NCBI GenBank assembly: GCA_040757115.1
Contig: JBFLYA010000183.1
Coordinates: forward strand, 1 to 7,466
DNA from: a bacterium
Lineage (GTDB): Bacteria > UBA9089 > CG2-30-40-21 > SBAY01
Direction of reading: 5' to 3'
DNA: 7,466 nt
The notes under the pieces were generated by a model. It was given only the letters and a program-made list of their open reading frames with translations, did no database searches and was not told the origin of the DNA. A program made the translations under genes and the position numbers. Shown in pieces: positions 1-7,240 of this stretch (position 1 is the stretch's first letter; each line of letters begins with the position of its first letter).

Positions 1-183
1 GATATTATTAAAAAAATTGAAATTAATAGAAACTAATAGAAATTTATGGAAATTTGTTGTTTTCCACAATCAATTTCTACCTATTTCTATAAATTTCAAT
101 CTATTTCTATTATCTTATCTCCATATCCCCCTTATCTCCTTATCCCCTTTTTTACACTGCTGATACATAACCTGAACGGTTAC
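1..183. mobile_element. Miniature inverted-repeat element, copy A, left end cut by window
   Basis: This non-coding stretch aligns over its whole length with 1259-1442, with about 11 substitutions and one 1-nt indel (about 93% identity by eye), in the same orientation. It ends at 170-183 in ACCTGAACGGTTAC, the same right terminus as the intact copy. Four GAAA motifs at 19, 29, 39 and 49 mirror four TTTC motifs at 74, 84, 94 and 104, forming a large imperfect hairpin. By comparison with the intact copy, about 56 bp of its left end lie outside the window. The next 8 bp, ATTTTTTA (184-191), should be its target duplication and include the stop codon of the neighbouring gene. There is no coding capacity. 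Sequence and structure are seen directly; mobilisation by an IS66-type transposase is inferred. Confidence 0.85.
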
Positions 184-188
184 ATTTT

Positions 189-1124
189 TTAGAACTTAGT
201 AATGAATGAAAATCTATGCGAATTGTCGAAATCCGGGTGTGATATGTAGCCATAATCTACCGAAACCACAATTCCTTCAAAATATCCCTCTCCGGTGCTT
301 TTAAATCCAACTCCTGCTGAGTAGCCTGTTTGTTGGTTATATCCGAGTCTAAGACCAAGTGATTGAGTCAACCAGTATTCAATGCCGCTTTGAAAATTAA
401 TAGCATTATCCTTCGGCATATCTATATCTAATGCCACTAAAGTCTTTTCTCCAAATAACTCAGGTTTGTAACATGCACCTAATTTTATATTGAATGGCAG
501 GTCATTTTTTGCATCTGCGGTTTTTAATTTTGGACCTAAATTCTGGATATTTAATCCAAAAGAGGTCTTTTTTGTATAATGAAAGAGTGCTCCCAGGTCC
601 ACGGCGATGCCTGTGCCTTTATTACTGGCATAGTCTTGTTTAATCGTTTTTAGATTAAATCCAACAAGAACATTTTTAGGAATTAATAACTCTAATGCGT
701 AAGATAAACAAAGGGCTAAATTATCTACTTCTAATGTTGTGGTTGGATTGCTGGCATTATCCCGACCATCAATACCACCTGCCCTTAACATAATTAAACT
801 TACACCCATAGCTCTTTTTATGTTATTAATTGGTGGAAGTGGTTGTGAATAGGCAAGGAAATTAGTTTTTATATCCTCAAACCATATCGTATGAGCGGCG
901 GTCATTTCTTTTGATTTGAGTTGGACAAGTCCTGCGGGATTCCAATATGTGGCATTAATATCATCGGCAATGGCTACCCCCGCACCACCCATACCAATGA
1001 CTCTTGGTCCTTGCCCTATCTTTAGAAATTGCGCGGTAGCGATACCTACATTATCATCCCCTGCATAACTAATTACTGGCTGACTGAAGATTAAAATGCT
1101 CATTAATAATACTAACTTTTTCAT
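189..1124 (-). CDS. PorV/PorQ-family outer-membrane beta-barrel protein
   Basis: This 311-residue protein is probably an outer-membrane barrel. Residues 1-21 form a signal peptide (KK, hydrophobic core, likely cleavage after SYA). Residues 40-65 carry the family signature, with GMGGAGVAIADD followed by YWNPAGL. A second typical stretch, NIQNLGP then DLPFNIKLGA, lies at about 192-217. The chain ends in HRFSFITKF, and a terminal Phe is characteristic of Bam-inserted barrels. In type IX secretion PorV binds C-terminal sorting domains and carries cargo to the cell surface. Many candidate phyla carry relatives of uncertain role, so PorV and PorQ cannot be told apart here. The ATG start has a strong AAGGAGG site (1134-1140) 9 nt upstream. 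The gene is bracketed by two miniature elements, and its TAA (189-191) lies in the presumed target duplication of one of them. Family assignment is strong; a role in exporting the 1709-residue neighbour is inferred from proximity. Confidence 0.9.
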   Translation of the reverse strand: MKKLVLLMSILIFSQPVISYAGDDNVGIATAQFLKIGQGPRVIGMGGAGVAIADDINATYWNPAGLVQLKSKEMTAAHTIWFEDIKTNFLAYSQPLPPINNIKRAMGVSLIMLRAGGIDGRDNASNPTTTLEVDNLALCLSYALELLIPKNVLVGFNLKTIKQDYASNKGTGIAVDLGALFHYTKKTSFGLNIQNLGPKLKTADAKNDLPFNIKLGACYKPELFGEKTLVALDIDMPKDNAINFQSGIEYWLTQSLGLRLGYNQQTGYSAGVGFKSTGEGYFEGIVVSVDYGYISHPDFDNSHRFSFITKF

Positions 1125-1194: not shown

Positions 1195-1202
1195 CTTACT
1201 TT
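1195..1202. repeat. 8-bp target-site duplication, left copy
   Basis: CTTACTTT lies immediately outside the left terminus (1203) of the intact miniature element and is repeated exactly at 1443-1450, immediately outside the right terminus. Perfect direct repeats abutting both inverted-repeat tips are the footprint of a transposition event. Eight base pairs is the duplication length reported for the IS66 family. Confidence 0.9.
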
Positions 1203-1442
1203 GTAAGCGTTCAGGTGGTGTAAGAAAAGGAGATATGGAGATAAAGGAGATAAGGGGGGATATTATTAAAAAAAATTGAAATTAGTAGAAACTAATAGAA
1301 ATTTATGGAAATTTGTTGTTTCCCACAATCAATTTCTACCTATTTCTATAAATTTCAATCTATTTCTATTATCTTATCTCCATATCTTCCTTATCTCCTT
1401 ATCCCCCTTCTTACACTTTTAATGTATAACCTGAACGGTTAC
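1203..1442. mobile_element. Intact 240-bp miniature inverted-repeat element (MITE), copy B, IS66-like ends
   Basis: The termini are GTAAGCGTTCAGGT (1203-1216) and ACCTGAACGGTTAC (1429-1442), which are inverted repeats matching at 13 of 14 positions, flanked by perfect 8-bp duplications. The interior has no open frame. Its left half is purine-rich, with GGAGATA at 1229, 1237 and 1246, then GAAA at 1278, 1288, 1298 and 1308. Its right half is the pyrimidine-rich mirror, with TTTC at 1333, 1343, 1353 and 1363. The arms and the ends share the same centre, about 1322, so a transcript would fold into one very long hairpin with a short loop around TTTCCCA. GTAA tips and 8-bp duplications are known traits of IS66-family elements, so a non-autonomous IS66-type derivative is likely. 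It lies between the coiled-coil gene and the PorV-like gene and may attenuate or process a shared transcript. Confidence 0.9.
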
Positions 1443-1450
1443 CTTACTTT
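1443..1450. repeat. 8-bp target-site duplication, right copy
   Basis: This CTTACTTT is an exact direct copy of 1195-1202 and directly abuts the right terminus of the miniature element at 1442. Removing the element and one copy would restore the pre-insertion spacer between the coiled-coil gene and the PorV-like gene. The remaining 42 bp up to the coiled-coil stop codon hold no clear terminator. Confidence 0.9.
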
Positions 1451-1880: not shown

Positions 1881-4800
1881 TTATTGAACCACAATCAATT
1901 TTTTGGTTACCGTTACCTCTCCTGATTCATCAGCCGCTGTAAGTCTATAAATATATAATCCTGTAGCCACTTTTTTCCCGGCATTATTTTCACAATTCCA
2001 GAAAATAGCATCATTACCCGCTGGATATACACCATGACTTCCTTGTTTTCCTTGAGGAGATGCAGACGAATATTCTTTAGTCCAAACTTCATCTCCCATA
2101 ATCGTATATATTTTAAGAGTAACTTTTGCATCTCTAATCAAGTCATATCTGAAGGTGACTCTACCACCTTTAGTCGGGTTGGGATATGCAAAAACACTTT
2201 CTTTGAATGTTTCTGGTTTTTCTGTTATTTCCGGGATAACATACATAATCGCATACATCTTTCGAATAATCTTTGTCTTGTAAGTCATTTGTTTATTATC
2301 TTGGTCCAGGTGGGCTGTAGTAATTTTTGCCCAATTTGTTCCATCGTATTCATAGATTGCCAGGTCTGCTTCTGTAAGAGAGCGTTGGGATAAATCCTTT
2401 ACATCATCCTGGGTATAATACATAATAAGCTCAACTTCGTTATTAAATACCATTGTCTTTACATCTGGTGTGTCCTTAAGGAAGAATTGGACTACTGGTT
2501 TAACCACTACATAGCCAGTTCTTGTTGTAGTAGAAGTTCCAGCGGTTACAGTATCTGTTCCTACAGGAGAACCATTAACCGTAGTAGATTCCGGAATCTT
2601 TAAGCAAGTAACCCATTTTTTATATTGATAGTGATAATATTGAACCTCTACTGCCTTAGGCGTAGAATACATAATGGCATAGGAATCTTCTAAACTTACA
2701 TCTGGATATTCAGGTAAATTCACTGTAATTTTATTATTGTTTTTATCTATATCATTAACTCCACTTATTTTCTCCCACATTGTTCCATTATATCTCCAGA
2801 TAGCTAAATTGTCCTCTGTAATTCCTATTGGTAATGGTAATTTATGTCCATAATACATTGTAAGGGAAATATTACCTACGGGGGGGTCTAATGTTATATC
2901 AGTATGTTCAGTGTTAAACCACCAAAATTCTATGGCCGGGTCTATTGCTGTATAACCTTCATTTGGTGTAATAGTTCCCTGCTTAATACTAATAGTATTA
3001 GTACTCACTGTTACGCCGCTGGTAGCATAAGTATCAGCCTTTGTATCAGGAGGAATTTCCAGATAGGTTTTAGTCCCAAGACCTGGATAATTAAAATAAA
3101 CATATATATAACCCTCTACACTGACATAAAAGGTAAGTTTTGGGCTATAACTATTATTACCTGAAGGGGTTTTATCCCATGCCTCTACCCAGATGGTATA
3201 AGTTCCTCCTTCATCAATGGTAAGGTTCTCATATATTATTCGGCCGCTATTTTCGGTTTCATTAATTTTTTCTTCTCTTCGACTACCACCAAATAATTTA
3301 TTTGGTTCATCTTCTTCCCCGGTAGATTGTTTCTTGACTATAATTTTTGATGATGCAAAATCTACCTTTGACTTACCAGTTTCGATTTCTGACAAAGTTA
3401 CTGTAATCTTCTGAATTACATTTGGTCCAAAAATATCTTTGTCTTTTAACACCGTACTGTCCACTAAAATGTCAAATATTTCAGGTCCCATTCTATCTAA
3501 TATCGTAAAGGTAAATATTTGAGGCGTATCATCTGCACCATTTTTAGCATTGTCCACAGGTTTTACTTCAATCGTATAGTCATCTGGTAGAGTTAAGGGT
3601 GTTTCCAAAGTCCACTTTACGGTATCAATACCATTATTTGATGGCACACCCGGCATAACCAAACCAATAGAATTTTTAAGTATAATAGTAGATAAGCCAA
3701 AATCAATTCCTGCCCCACCCTGGTCCATTAATTGAGCAGAGATGACAGATATATTCTCAGTTGGTTCATGGATAGTATTCGCCCCCGGGTCGGTCATAAC
3801 TATTACCGGTGCTATATAATCTGGTTTGATAATTGGAGAGTGAATTACTTCTACCCTACCTTCAACTGATTCAGAGGTTCTACTATATCCTTTTGCATGA
3901 TTTGGTTTTTGATGCCACTTCTCGGCTATTGGATTTTCAGCCGGATCTCGAACATAATCTATAAATTTCCAGCACGAACCTACTAATTCTACTTGCATTC
4001 TTATAATATATGTCCCGTTTGGAATATTCCAATCCTTGATTCCAACACCCCAATCAATATAATATTGATTTTCATCTAAAGGGTCTCGCTGAAGAGGAAC
4101 TAATGTATTCCAGTCATTTCCTTTATTTCCATCTCCCTCATCCGGTAAATCAGTGCCAAGTTTAGGATACCACCCCCAGCCTGTCTCTGTTCCAAAAGGG
4201 CCTGTATAATAATTAGGATAACCATTAGTAAACGGGTCATCATCTGAATCCCCTGTATTCAAATCAGGTAATCCTAAGGGTCTTAATTCATTCCCCTGGG
4301 CATCAAAACAGGTAAAGTCAACTAAAAGATAAGGTAAGGTGTAAATATCTTCTGAATCCATCTCAAATCCTAAATTTTCTAATTGAGACTTTGTTGCCTC
4401 TACTGTAACATGAATATTTGTCCAGAAATCGGTATCATCTTCTATCTGAGGGGTAGGAGTAAATTCAGTTTCATCAATCTTCAATTCTGTAATGGTAATG
4501 TTAATAGTACTTGCTTTTATTGCTCCAATTCTTTCTGTCGCTTTATTCCCAGCTGTATCAACAGCATTAATCTTAAAGGTATAGTCTCCATCTTTCACTA
4601 ATCCTCCACACAAATTCTTTCCATCCCATGTTGCTGAACAATTATCCCCATATTGAGGTTCAGGAATAGTTAATATTCTAATCCGGTCGTTGTCCTTCCA
4701 TATTTCTATTGTTACCTTAGACCCTATTTCTAAGAGGGTATATTTTATAGTTACATTTTCAGAGCCTGGTCTAAATATACCAGGGAAGGCACCAAAGTTA

Positions 4801-7010
4801 GTAATAACAGGTGGAGTAGCATCAATTACAATTTCCTCTTGACTGCGTATGCCATTATTTTCAGCATTGTTACCTGCAGAACTAAAATAACCATAGAAAT
4901 AGCTTGTTGTATCGTCTTTTTGTTTTATAGTATATAAATTAGAATATACACCATCTCCGGCTATTACATCTTTATGAGTAACAGCTCCATTATCATAAAG
5001 AGAAATACCTTGCACAATTAAACCCATATCAGTGTAGGCTGCTCCTCCCATAGCAAAAGAGGCAATTATACCTTTAATCTCTCCCAGTCCCTGGTAATCA
5101 TTGACTAATTTACCAAAATAAATATTAGCATTAGAAGCCTCAAACCTACCACTTTGTGAAGCAGTTCCTAACCAGATATGGGCATCATTATTATCATATA
5201 CTACCACCATTGTTCCTGTAGCTATTCTTGGATCCTCAAATATTACCGCCGTAGTCGTTCGCGTTGGCTGTCCCAGTGTATTTAATATGTTTACTGCCGT
5301 TAGATTAATAATAACCTCATCATCTATTTTCATTACTTTTTTAACCCAGGTACCTTCTGTGATAGTAGATGTGGCAATATTGTTATAATCAGATACCGGG
5401 AATCCGAAGAAAATATCGGCATTAGATACACTAATTTCTCCATCTTTACTTGCCGATGTTACCCAGCTACAAGAGTTATTTGTAATCTTTATCTTATCTC
5501 CTGTTTTAATATTATTTGAATAAATAGTCATAGTTGAAGTAGCCAGGGTAATATTATTTATTGTGAATGTCCCATTTTCTGGAGTTAATGTTTTTAATCT
5601 AACAATTCTTGCTCCCGAGACAGGGGGGAACTCATTACCTCGCAAGGCAATAGTCCCAAAGATTTCATTGTTATTAATTGCAGGATTACCTGCTTTATCT
5701 TCAAAATAAGCCGAGTAGGCAAAAGTTCCCACATCTGTTTGGACAACTTTATAGTATTCCGCATATATTCCATTTCCACAGTCAATTAAATCTAATACCC
5801 TTGCATCAAAACTACATATTCCTATTCCCCCATCTGACTCTACTGAGTTGGTTCCAATCCAATCGGAAGATTGAAGCACGAAAATAATCTCCTGGTCCCG
5901 ATAGCATGGATTTCCACCACTGTTATCTATCAGAAAATCAATCCTCGGTGGGGTATTATCTATCGTGACTAAGACAGTATCTTCCGCGGAATTACCTGCT
6001 GGGTCCTCTGCACTTAAATTTATTGTATGGGTACCTTCATCAAAAGCTACTCCATTTTCATCTAATCCTCCCCATATTACCCATTCAAAATAGTTCTGGG
6101 GTATAGTTCCGGTCCCTCCTAATAATATTCTTCCGTCTATACTTAATTGATAAGATATAGGGTCTAATTCGTCATTTTGTAAAATAATAGTAGTAGTATC
6201 CTGTATTCCTGTTGAGGTGCCGGGAGAAAAAACATCATCGGATAAAGAAATGAATACTTTCATCGGAGCAGTTCTATCTATCCAAACATAACAAGTCTCT
6301 ATATTCGCTTGATTTCCTGCCTCATCCCATATATTTACCTGAACAGTATGTGTTCCTTCTAAGAAAGCCCTTCCATATTCATCGCATCCATCCCACACAT
6401 AAGATATATCAACATTTGCACTCATTGTTCCTGTTGGGTTAGAAGATGGTATCCTATTATCAATTAAAATCTCATATTTCCCCGTCTCATTACTTTTAAA
6501 TGTAATAGTTGTAGTATCTTTCTGACCGGGTGAGGATTGTGGGGAAAAATATGGCTCTGAAACCACTAAAGCCAAAATTTCAGGTTGTTTATAATCAGCC
6601 TGGATAGTTACAGTCCCCGGGTCACCACCATTATCCAGATCTACAACTATATCTGCAGTCTGGTAATTAACAAGTTGTAAGTTCTCATCACTCATTGCAT
6701 CAGTAGAAATTTTCTGGATTATTCCCGTATATGTCCCATCATTAATCATTACATCCGGATCCCATCCATCATCCCTAAGTGTAAGTGTAAAAGTAGAGCC
6801 TGCTCTCGGAACAATAGTTACTTTTTTCTCCCCTCCCGTCATAGTTCCAGCATTAGCGGTTACAATTGCACTAGCACCATCTTTAAAACGTATACTCTCT
6901 CTCCCATCGCTATGGTATGTCTTAACTACATCTTGCGCACTCCAGGCACCCTGATTACTGAATCCAACTAATAACAAACCAATAAATATAGATTTTGATA
7001 TACTTTTCAT
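1881..7010 (-). CDS. Giant secreted multi-domain Ig-like protein with FlgD/Por-secretion-like C-terminal domain
   Basis: This 1709-residue protein begins with a signal peptide (1-25, cleavage likely after AWSA). By eye its modules are: an N-terminal beta domain (26-140); two FlgD-like Ig repeats (141-248 and 249-355), each beginning with a YFSP or VFSP motif and DTTTI, then EGTHT and AGN, and ending in TAP or TPP; a divergent Ig-like unit (356-457); a segment with a duplicated motif (508-548 and 604-645, sharing NADIFFG/NANIYFG and SDY/NDY); a domain with DNG and GDGVYS like choice-of-anchor modules (655-735); a clear FlgD-like Ig (735-835, ATWDGKN then DGDYTFKINAVDTAGN); an unassigned acidic, aromatic region (836-1065); two Ig-like units (1066-1297); a duplicated beta unit (1298-1595, LAIWRYNGTMW and LAIYEYDGTNW); and a C-terminal domain (1601-1709) with YPNP, GLYIYRL and KKLIVV. 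That tail resembles FlgD_ig or type IX sorting domains, so surface export is inferred. It has 12 cysteines. The ATG has AAAGGAG (7021-7027) 10 nt upstream. Ligand or enzymatic activity is unknown; no catalytic domain was seen. Confidence 0.9.
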   Translation of the reverse strand: MKSISKSIFIGLLLVGFSNQGAWSAQDVVKTYHSDGRESIRFKDGASAIVTANAGTMTGGEKKVTIVPRAGSTFTLTLRDDGWDPDVMINDGTYTGIIQKISTDAMSDENLQLVNYQTADIVVDLDNGGDPGTVTIQADYKQPEILALVVSEPYFSPQSSPGQKDTTTITFKSNETGKYEILIDNRIPSSNPTGTMSANVDISYVWDGCDEYGRAFLEGTHTVQVNIWDEAGNQANIETCYVWIDRTAPMKVFISLSDDVFSPGTSTGIQDTTTIILQNDELDPISYQLSIDGRILLGGTGTIPQNYFEWVIWGGLDENGVAFDEGTHTINLSAEDPAGNSAEDTVLVTIDNTPPRIDFLIDNSGGNPCYRDQEIIFVLQSSDWIGTNSVESDGGIGICSFDARVLDLIDCGNGIYAEYYKVVQTDVGTFAYSAYFEDKAGNPAINNNEIFGTIALRGNEFPPVSGARIVRLKTLTPENGTFTINNITLATSTMTIYSNNIKTGDKIKITNNSCSWVTSASKDGEISVSNADIFFGFPVSDYNNIATSTITEGTWVKKVMKIDDEVIINLTAVNILNTLGQPTRTTTAVIFEDPRIATGTMVVVYDNNDAHIWLGTASQSGRFEASNANIYFGKLVNDYQGLGEIKGIIASFAMGGAAYTDMGLIVQGISLYDNGAVTHKDVIAGDGVYSNLYTIKQKDDTTSYFYGYFSSAGNNAENNGIRSQEEIVIDATPPVITNFGAFPGIFRPGSENVTIKYTLLEIGSKVTIEIWKDNDRIRILTIPEPQYGDNCSATWDGKNLCGGLVKDGDYTFKINAVDTAGNKATERIGAIKASTINITITELKIDETEFTPTPQIEDDTDFWTNIHVTVEATKSQLENLGFEMDSEDIYTLPYLLVDFTCFDAQGNELRPLGLPDLNTGDSDDDPFTNGYPNYYTGPFGTETGWGWYPKLGTDLPDEGDGNKGNDWNTLVPLQRDPLDENQYYIDWGVGIKDWNIPNGTYIIRMQVELVGSCWKFIDYVRDPAENPIAEKWHQKPNHAKGYSRTSESVEGRVEVIHSPIIKPDYIAPVIVMTDPGANTIHEPTENISVISAQLMDQGGAGIDFGLSTIILKNSIGLVMPGVPSNNGIDTVKWTLETPLTLPDDYTIEVKPVDNAKNGADDTPQIFTFTILDRMGPEIFDILVDSTVLKDKDIFGPNVIQKITVTLSEIETGKSKVDFASSKIIVKKQSTGEEDEPNKLFGGSRREEKINETENSGRIIYENLTIDEGGTYTIWVEAWDKTPSGNNSYSPKLTFYVSVEGYIYVYFNYPGLGTKTYLEIPPDTKADTYATSGVTVSTNTISIKQGTITPNEGYTAIDPAIEFWWFNTEHTDITLDPPVGNISLTMYYGHKLPLPIGITEDNLAIWRYNGTMWEKISGVNDIDKNNNKITVNLPEYPDVSLEDSYAIMYSTPKAVEVQYYHYQYKKWVTCLKIPESTTVNGSPVGTDTVTAGTSTTTRTGYVVVKPVVQFFLKDTPDVKTMVFNNEVELIMYYTQDDVKDLSQRSLTEADLAIYEYDGTNWAKITTAHLDQDNKQMTYKTKIIRKMYAIMYVIPEITEKPETFKESVFAYPNPTKGGRVTFRYDLIRDAKVTLKIYTIMGDEVWTKEYSSASPQGKQGSHGVYPAGNDAIFWNCENNAGKKVATGLYIYRLTAADESGEVTVTKKLIVVQ

Positions 7011-7042: not shown

Positions 7043-7240
7043 GCCTTTCACGAAATTCATAGCTCCTTGATTAACAAGAAGTTACAAATACGCTTTTTTC
7101 TTATTGCCCTTCTACTATATAACTCCTTGTGCCTTTCACGAAATTCACAACATGTTGATTTGCTTGTAGTTACAGATGCACTCTTTTTCTTATTGTCCTC
7201 CTGCCATCTAACTCCTTGATTTCAAAAGAGTTGCAAACGT
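7043..7240. repeat. 88-bp tandem repeat in the leader of the giant secreted protein gene, about 2.4 copies
   Basis: Unit 1 (7043-7130) and unit 2 (7131-7219) both begin GCCTTTCACGAAATTCA and continue with matching blocks, including AGTTACA, TTTCTTATTG and AACTCCTTG. A partial third copy (about 7210-7240) resembles 7061-7095 but lacks the CACGAAATT block. It joins the array at AACTCCTTG, as if deleted between two short direct repeats. Read on the minus strand, the units contain Shine-Dalgarno-like AAGGAG(T/C)TA and the motif AATTTCGTGAAAGGC. The array ends 16 bp before the ribosome binding site of the 1709-residue protein, so it is probably leader or promoter DNA. Repetition is seen directly; function is not known. 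No confident promoter could be placed in it. Confidence 0.8.

Follow-up and report, generated by a model that had tools for sequence, protein, structure and literature searches.

Introduction

ISDge4, an experimentally active insertion sequence of the ISBst12 group, carries one transposase gene between the tips GTGACTACTCAGCA and GTAACTGCTCAGCA (GTAAC...CTCAGCA) and is accompanied by an 8-bp repeat (PMC12898284). The window analysed here, by which we mean the whole 7,466-nt stretch of DNA under study, contains a 240-bp element that resembles the ISBst12 group (e.g. ISDge4, PMC12898284) in its GTAAC-type imperfect tips and its 8-bp target duplication, and whose presumed parent likewise has just one transposase gene, encoding about 450-480 aa. 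Unlike members of that group, the window element is gene-less and only 240 bp long, and the sequence that follows GTAAC differs from that of ISDge4 (CGTTCAGGT in the window, TGCTCAGCA in ISDge4).

Two described MITEs also invite comparison. Chunjie, a type II MITE of Geobacter uraniireducens (PMC10969869), is similar in size (178-235 bp) and is present in tens of copies with conserved tips, direct repeats and intergenic positions. However, the window MITE has an IS66-type parent, folds into a near full-length hairpin, reaches about 150 copies and shares its tips with several unrelated cores. MITECca01 of Cardinium (PMC9769881) is another high-copy element (169 copies) for which a parental IS was identified in its own genome, but this IS982 parent has intact copies, whereas the IS66 parent of the window MITE is broken as assembled. 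IS66 goes unmentioned in a recent review of prokaryotic MITEs, and our searches of the open-access literature turned up no MITE described as derived from IS66. The initial annotation had remarked that small hairpin derivatives of IS66 are not commonly described, and as far as open-access papers go this remark is borne out. The window element is a known kind of mobile DNA and, at the same time, a new and well-supported case of it.

Results

The element occupies positions 1203-1442 of the window (plus strand). Its left terminal inverted repeat, GTAAGCGTTCAGGT (1203-1216, plus strand), matches the right one, GTAACCGTTCAGGT in minus-strand reading (1429-1442), at 13 of 14 positions, with one mismatch; both start with GTAA (GTAAGCG and GTAACCG). 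The right repeat is identical to the first 14 bases at both ends of an IS66 element of the host (L060:893-2455), and the left repeat equals the tip of that element except at position 5. The octamer CTTACTTT lies perfectly conserved directly outside both borders (1195-1202 and 1443-1450), and no ORF of at least 60 aa is found within 1203-1442. The element was initially described as non-coding, 240 bp long and bounded by inverted ends of 14 bp within a perfect 8-bp duplication; this description therefore holds, the ends agreeing at 13/14 positions.

Two inverted repeats provide arms of the predicted hairpin. The inner arms (1262-1306 and 1328-1372; repeat I1, 45 nt, 73% complementary) are followed outwards by subterminal arms (1224-1254 and 1373-1403; repeat I2, 77% complementary), the left of which consists of tandem GGAGATA-like units; all four are given on the plus strand. 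The RNA fold of the 240 bp is an almost end-to-end hairpin (-86.8 kcal/mol, z -8.8) and the DNA fold is similarly marked (-48.6, z -9.0), both well beyond what chance would give and in agreement with the near full-length hairpin proposed at the outset. An Rfam scan and a terminator scan of the element were both negative.

A second copy, of which only the right 183 bp remain, is cut by the contig end at window positions 1-183 (plus strand); it is 93% identical to the first and has the exact right tip (169-183). Many other contigs of the host genome (G000; 4.32 Mb in 462 contigs) likewise end inside a copy. Part of the fragmentation of this assembly is probably due to the family, which may also have caused false joins.

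Roughly 150 related copies of the MITE are present in the genome of the host, an uncultured bacterium. Whole-genome counts come from pattern searches, and 0.95 Mb of host DNA was read in stretches. A DNA search returned at least 40 full-length copies at 93% identity or more. A 24-mer of the core (up to 2 mismatches), whose counts take in pieces at contig ends, occurs 147 times in the host and 75 times in a genome of the same genus (G001), compared with 0 for the reversed control; it occurs 0 times in 17 other related genomes. With up to 1 mismatch allowed, the 15-mer of the right tip was found 313 times in the host genome, versus 3 for its reversed control. The 13-bp tip alone is spread more widely, with 360 occurrences in the host, 353 in G001, 98 in G008, 62 in G003 and 46 in G005 (controls, 0-1).

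We then considered the direct repeats that flank these copies. Perfect direct repeats beside tip pairs were found in 33 distinct elements at a length of 8 bp, and in 0-2 elements at each other length from 4 to 12. Among 50 distinct full-length copies, 26 have a perfect 8-bp duplication, when 0.56 would be expected from shuffled flanks (maximum 4 in 2000 shuffles), and the duplicated octamers, which are A+T-rich, vary between copies. The other 24 are without a perfect duplication, which may be due to recombination or to misassembly through the repeat. Letter-for-letter identity is seen in 22 of the 50 copies, 13 of which have no matching duplication. The forecast that the genome would hold several copies, each with its own 8-bp repeat, is thus upheld by the 147 core matches and the 26 perfect duplications, but about half of the full-length copies depart from it.

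The target of the insertion is itself a repeat. Its left part, made of TGGTAA heptads, extends over 1135-1202 and its right part (ATAATTTCGTGAAGCCCTATT) over 1451-1472, continuing the former across the MITE. When the window flanks are joined without the MITE, they correspond to many uninterrupted copies of this different, dispersed repeat (TGGTAATTGGTAACTGG...CCGATTACTTACTTT-ATAATTTCGTGAAGCCCTATT), in which CTTACTTT is present once only (e.g. L179:3613-3518, L154:5224-5126 and L071:5420-5518). Since the uninterrupted copies keep a single octamer and so represent the empty site, the insertion and its 8-bp duplication are directly shown. The target repeat (TGGTAATTGGTAACTGG heptads, then TTTCGTGAAGCCCTATT) occurs at many sites in the genome; here it lies directly upstream of the probable ribosome-binding site of the 189-1124 gene.

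At the corresponding locus of a sister genus (L122, G002), both neighbouring genes align, the intergenic stretch does not, and the MITE is absent. We had considered this locus as an orthologous empty site and dropped it because the intergenic stretch is unalignable; it shows the absence of the MITE only. The genome of the same genus has a MITE of 91% identity (L124:1501-1842, G001:C7) at precisely the corresponding point of this repeat; it too is flanked by duplicated CTTACTTT, and its gene context is a different one. Either one site was hit repeatedly, or repeat and MITE moved jointly as a composite.

The gene at 189-1124 (minus strand) encodes a PorV-like outer-membrane protein, and its upstream region now carries the MITE hairpin; on the other side, a gene at 1881-7010 (minus strand) encodes a protein of 1709 aa that has Ig-like and FlgD-like domains. 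Together, the two predicted products suggest a cell-surface or secretion locus, and the MITE may have a regulatory effect on the PorV-like gene downstream of it. Two occurrences of CCTTTCACGAAATTCA (7044-7059 and 7132-7147), 88 bp apart, precede the 1709-aa gene; the core of this sequence is similar to the TTTCGTGAA part of the repeat at 1451-1472 when the latter is reverse-complemented.

It had been anticipated that the ends of the MITE would also enclose a transposase gene of IS66 type, and such a gene was found in the same genome. The only near-complete IS66 transposase of the host lies on contig C277, within a 1563-bp element (L060:893-2455) that has GTAACCGTTCAGGTA, the 13-bp tips of the MITE, at both ends. 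The protein matches PF03050 (134.6 bits, E=5.9e-39) and NF033517 (283.6 bits, cut-off 180). A single long frame with an IS66 transposase domain, and no tnpA/tnpB, fills this element, as well as a relative in the same order (L086, 1450-2954); the host element is ISBst12-like, with one gene. The assembled host copy is inactivated by two in-frame stop codons and has no matching 8-bp repeat, its flanks TTATTTTT and AAAAACTT being different. As old copies lose their duplications, we regard a duplication at L060 as a supporting, not a defining, feature. Between the MITE and this element, the tips and a short CAGGTTATAC stretch (about 10 subterminal bases) are the only shared sequences.

Relatives of the host element extend the picture. 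The L086 element (genome G004) is intact, with 40% identity and GTAACCGTTCACA tips. A scan of named genomes gave eight IS66 loci from diverse phyla with GTAACCGTTCAC tips on both sides, among which L202 is the G004 element, and GTAACCGTTCA tips recur in these eight relatives. Perfect 8-bp duplications flank two of them, L204 (Thermoanaerobaculia, ATCCATTT) and L206 (Omnitrophota, AATTCTTT), both of which agree with the host tip over 11 bases (GTAACCGTTCA) before they diverge, position 12 being C rather than G. Within the phylum of the host, the full copies of IS66 (L060, L086 and L088) have no duplication; duplications were found in relatives from other phyla only. The reading of a GTAA tip with an 8-bp duplication as IS66-family behaviour is supported by the tips of the eight relatives, by the duplications at L204 and L206 and by ISDge4 (PMC12898284). 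The same-genus genome G001 contains its 353 tips yet almost no IS66 signal. As another potential parent, we considered the IS630-type transposase at L149:11313-12735 and rejected it, because it carries inner inverted repeats of its own and is inserted inside a different, CACAGAG-type tipped MITE family.

The tips of the MITE are not restricted to its own core. By overall similarity, 12 groups can be distinguished among the elements that combine these tips with a perfect duplication, some of the small groups being possibly distant relatives of one another, and almost all of the elements fold far better than shuffled sequence. Beside the window MITE there are eleven further groups (L032, L043, L053, L143, L148, L153, L156 and others) that have the same tips and 8-bp duplications around different hairpin cores, several of them built of CACAGAGACGCAGAG-like units. 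The second-largest group starts with GTAACCGTTCACCGCAGAG, a string that (up to 1 mismatch) has 145 occurrences in the host, 128 in G001 and 10 in G105. The latter genome belongs to another phylum (L264 and other places), and the string is absent from the other searched genomes outside the host's phylum.

Discussion

For the window element, the analysis shows precise borders, an 8-bp duplication, an empty site, numerous copies and, in the same genome, an IS66 element whose tips are the same. It is a MITE by its length below 500 bp, its lack of a transposase gene, its terminal inverted repeats, its fixed-length duplication and the tips that it has in common with an autonomous-type element of the host. 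By tips and duplication, the sequence evidence places it with the IS66/ISBst12 group. An internal sequence derived from the IS, as expected for a type I MITE that arose by internal deletion, is not seen in the comparison with L060, the tips and some 10 subterminal bases alone being common to both. As only tips are shared with the IS, the element falls under type II in the MITE classification of PMC10969869.

We consider it very probable that the 240-bp MITE was mobilised by a transposase that was made elsewhere and belongs to the IS66 family, more precisely to its single-gene ISBst12 type. We infer this acting enzyme, because the only assembled host parent is broken (two stops, no duplication). 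According to this scenario, an ISBst12-group transposase supplied in trans would recognise the GTAASCGTTCAGG tips and the MITE would be joined to an A+T-rich octamer target cut with an 8-base stagger, after which gap filling would give the CTTACTTT duplication. The internal hairpin (-87 kcal/mol) may well be a by-product of an origin by inverted duplication.

A transposase of some other family that makes 8-bp duplications, such as IS256 or IS1595, might instead have moved the MITE, the IS66 tips being a coincidence. The dead host IS66 copy without a duplication leaves room for this explanation, as does the IS630-type transposase that lies between two MITE-type tips in L149. However, when paired tips 0.7-3.5 kb apart were inspected in the 0.95 Mb of host DNA (longest ORF per region, by eye), the recognisable transposases between them were IS66 and IS630-like only, and GTAACCGTTCA tips are repeatedly found on IS66 elements of different phyla; we therefore judge another family to be improbable. 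The strong hairpin, the intergenic site and the absence of coding capacity would also suit a dispersed regulatory or RNA-coding hairpin of the REP/ERIC type, spread by recombination and flanked by its octamers by chance. Such an origin does not account for many independent 8-bp duplications in exact register, nor for empty sites and unrelated cores on common tips, and no Rfam family matches the element. The duplications and empty sites refute it, and we give it almost no weight, while a later RNA function of the hairpin is possible.

It could be argued as well that the assembly is at fault and that a repeat consensus was fused to unrelated flanks, given the fragmented assembly, the several contigs that end inside the element and the identical copies, more than half of which have no matching duplication. 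Some other copies may indeed be chimeric joins. The window copy is not one of them, because it differs from the consensus (93% identity), has a perfect duplication and is matched by an empty copy of the repeat, and an artefact at this locus is thus extremely unlikely. Mobilisation by an ISBst12-type transposase is the explanation that we retain.

The groups with other cores suggest that several hairpin MITE types are driven by one transposition system, and the presence of GTAACCGTTCACCGCAGAG in G105 suggests that one of these types has moved between phyla. We speculate, tentatively and with more doubt than confidence, that the IS66-type system of this lineage repeatedly converts unrelated short-period repeats into high-copy hairpins by setting GTAACCGTTCAGG tips on inverted duplications. 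A single tip sequence would in that case underlie about a dozen hairpin MITE types per genome, among them the GTAACCGTTCACCGCAGAG type common to a genome of another phylum.

The window thus offers a clean case of an IS66-derived MITE, in which borders, duplication, empty site and candidate parent come together. It also illustrates that several hairpin cores, unrelated to each other, can reach hundreds of sites by means of a single set of IS66 tips. The tips and the transposase relatives form a two-part transposition system that is open to direct testing.
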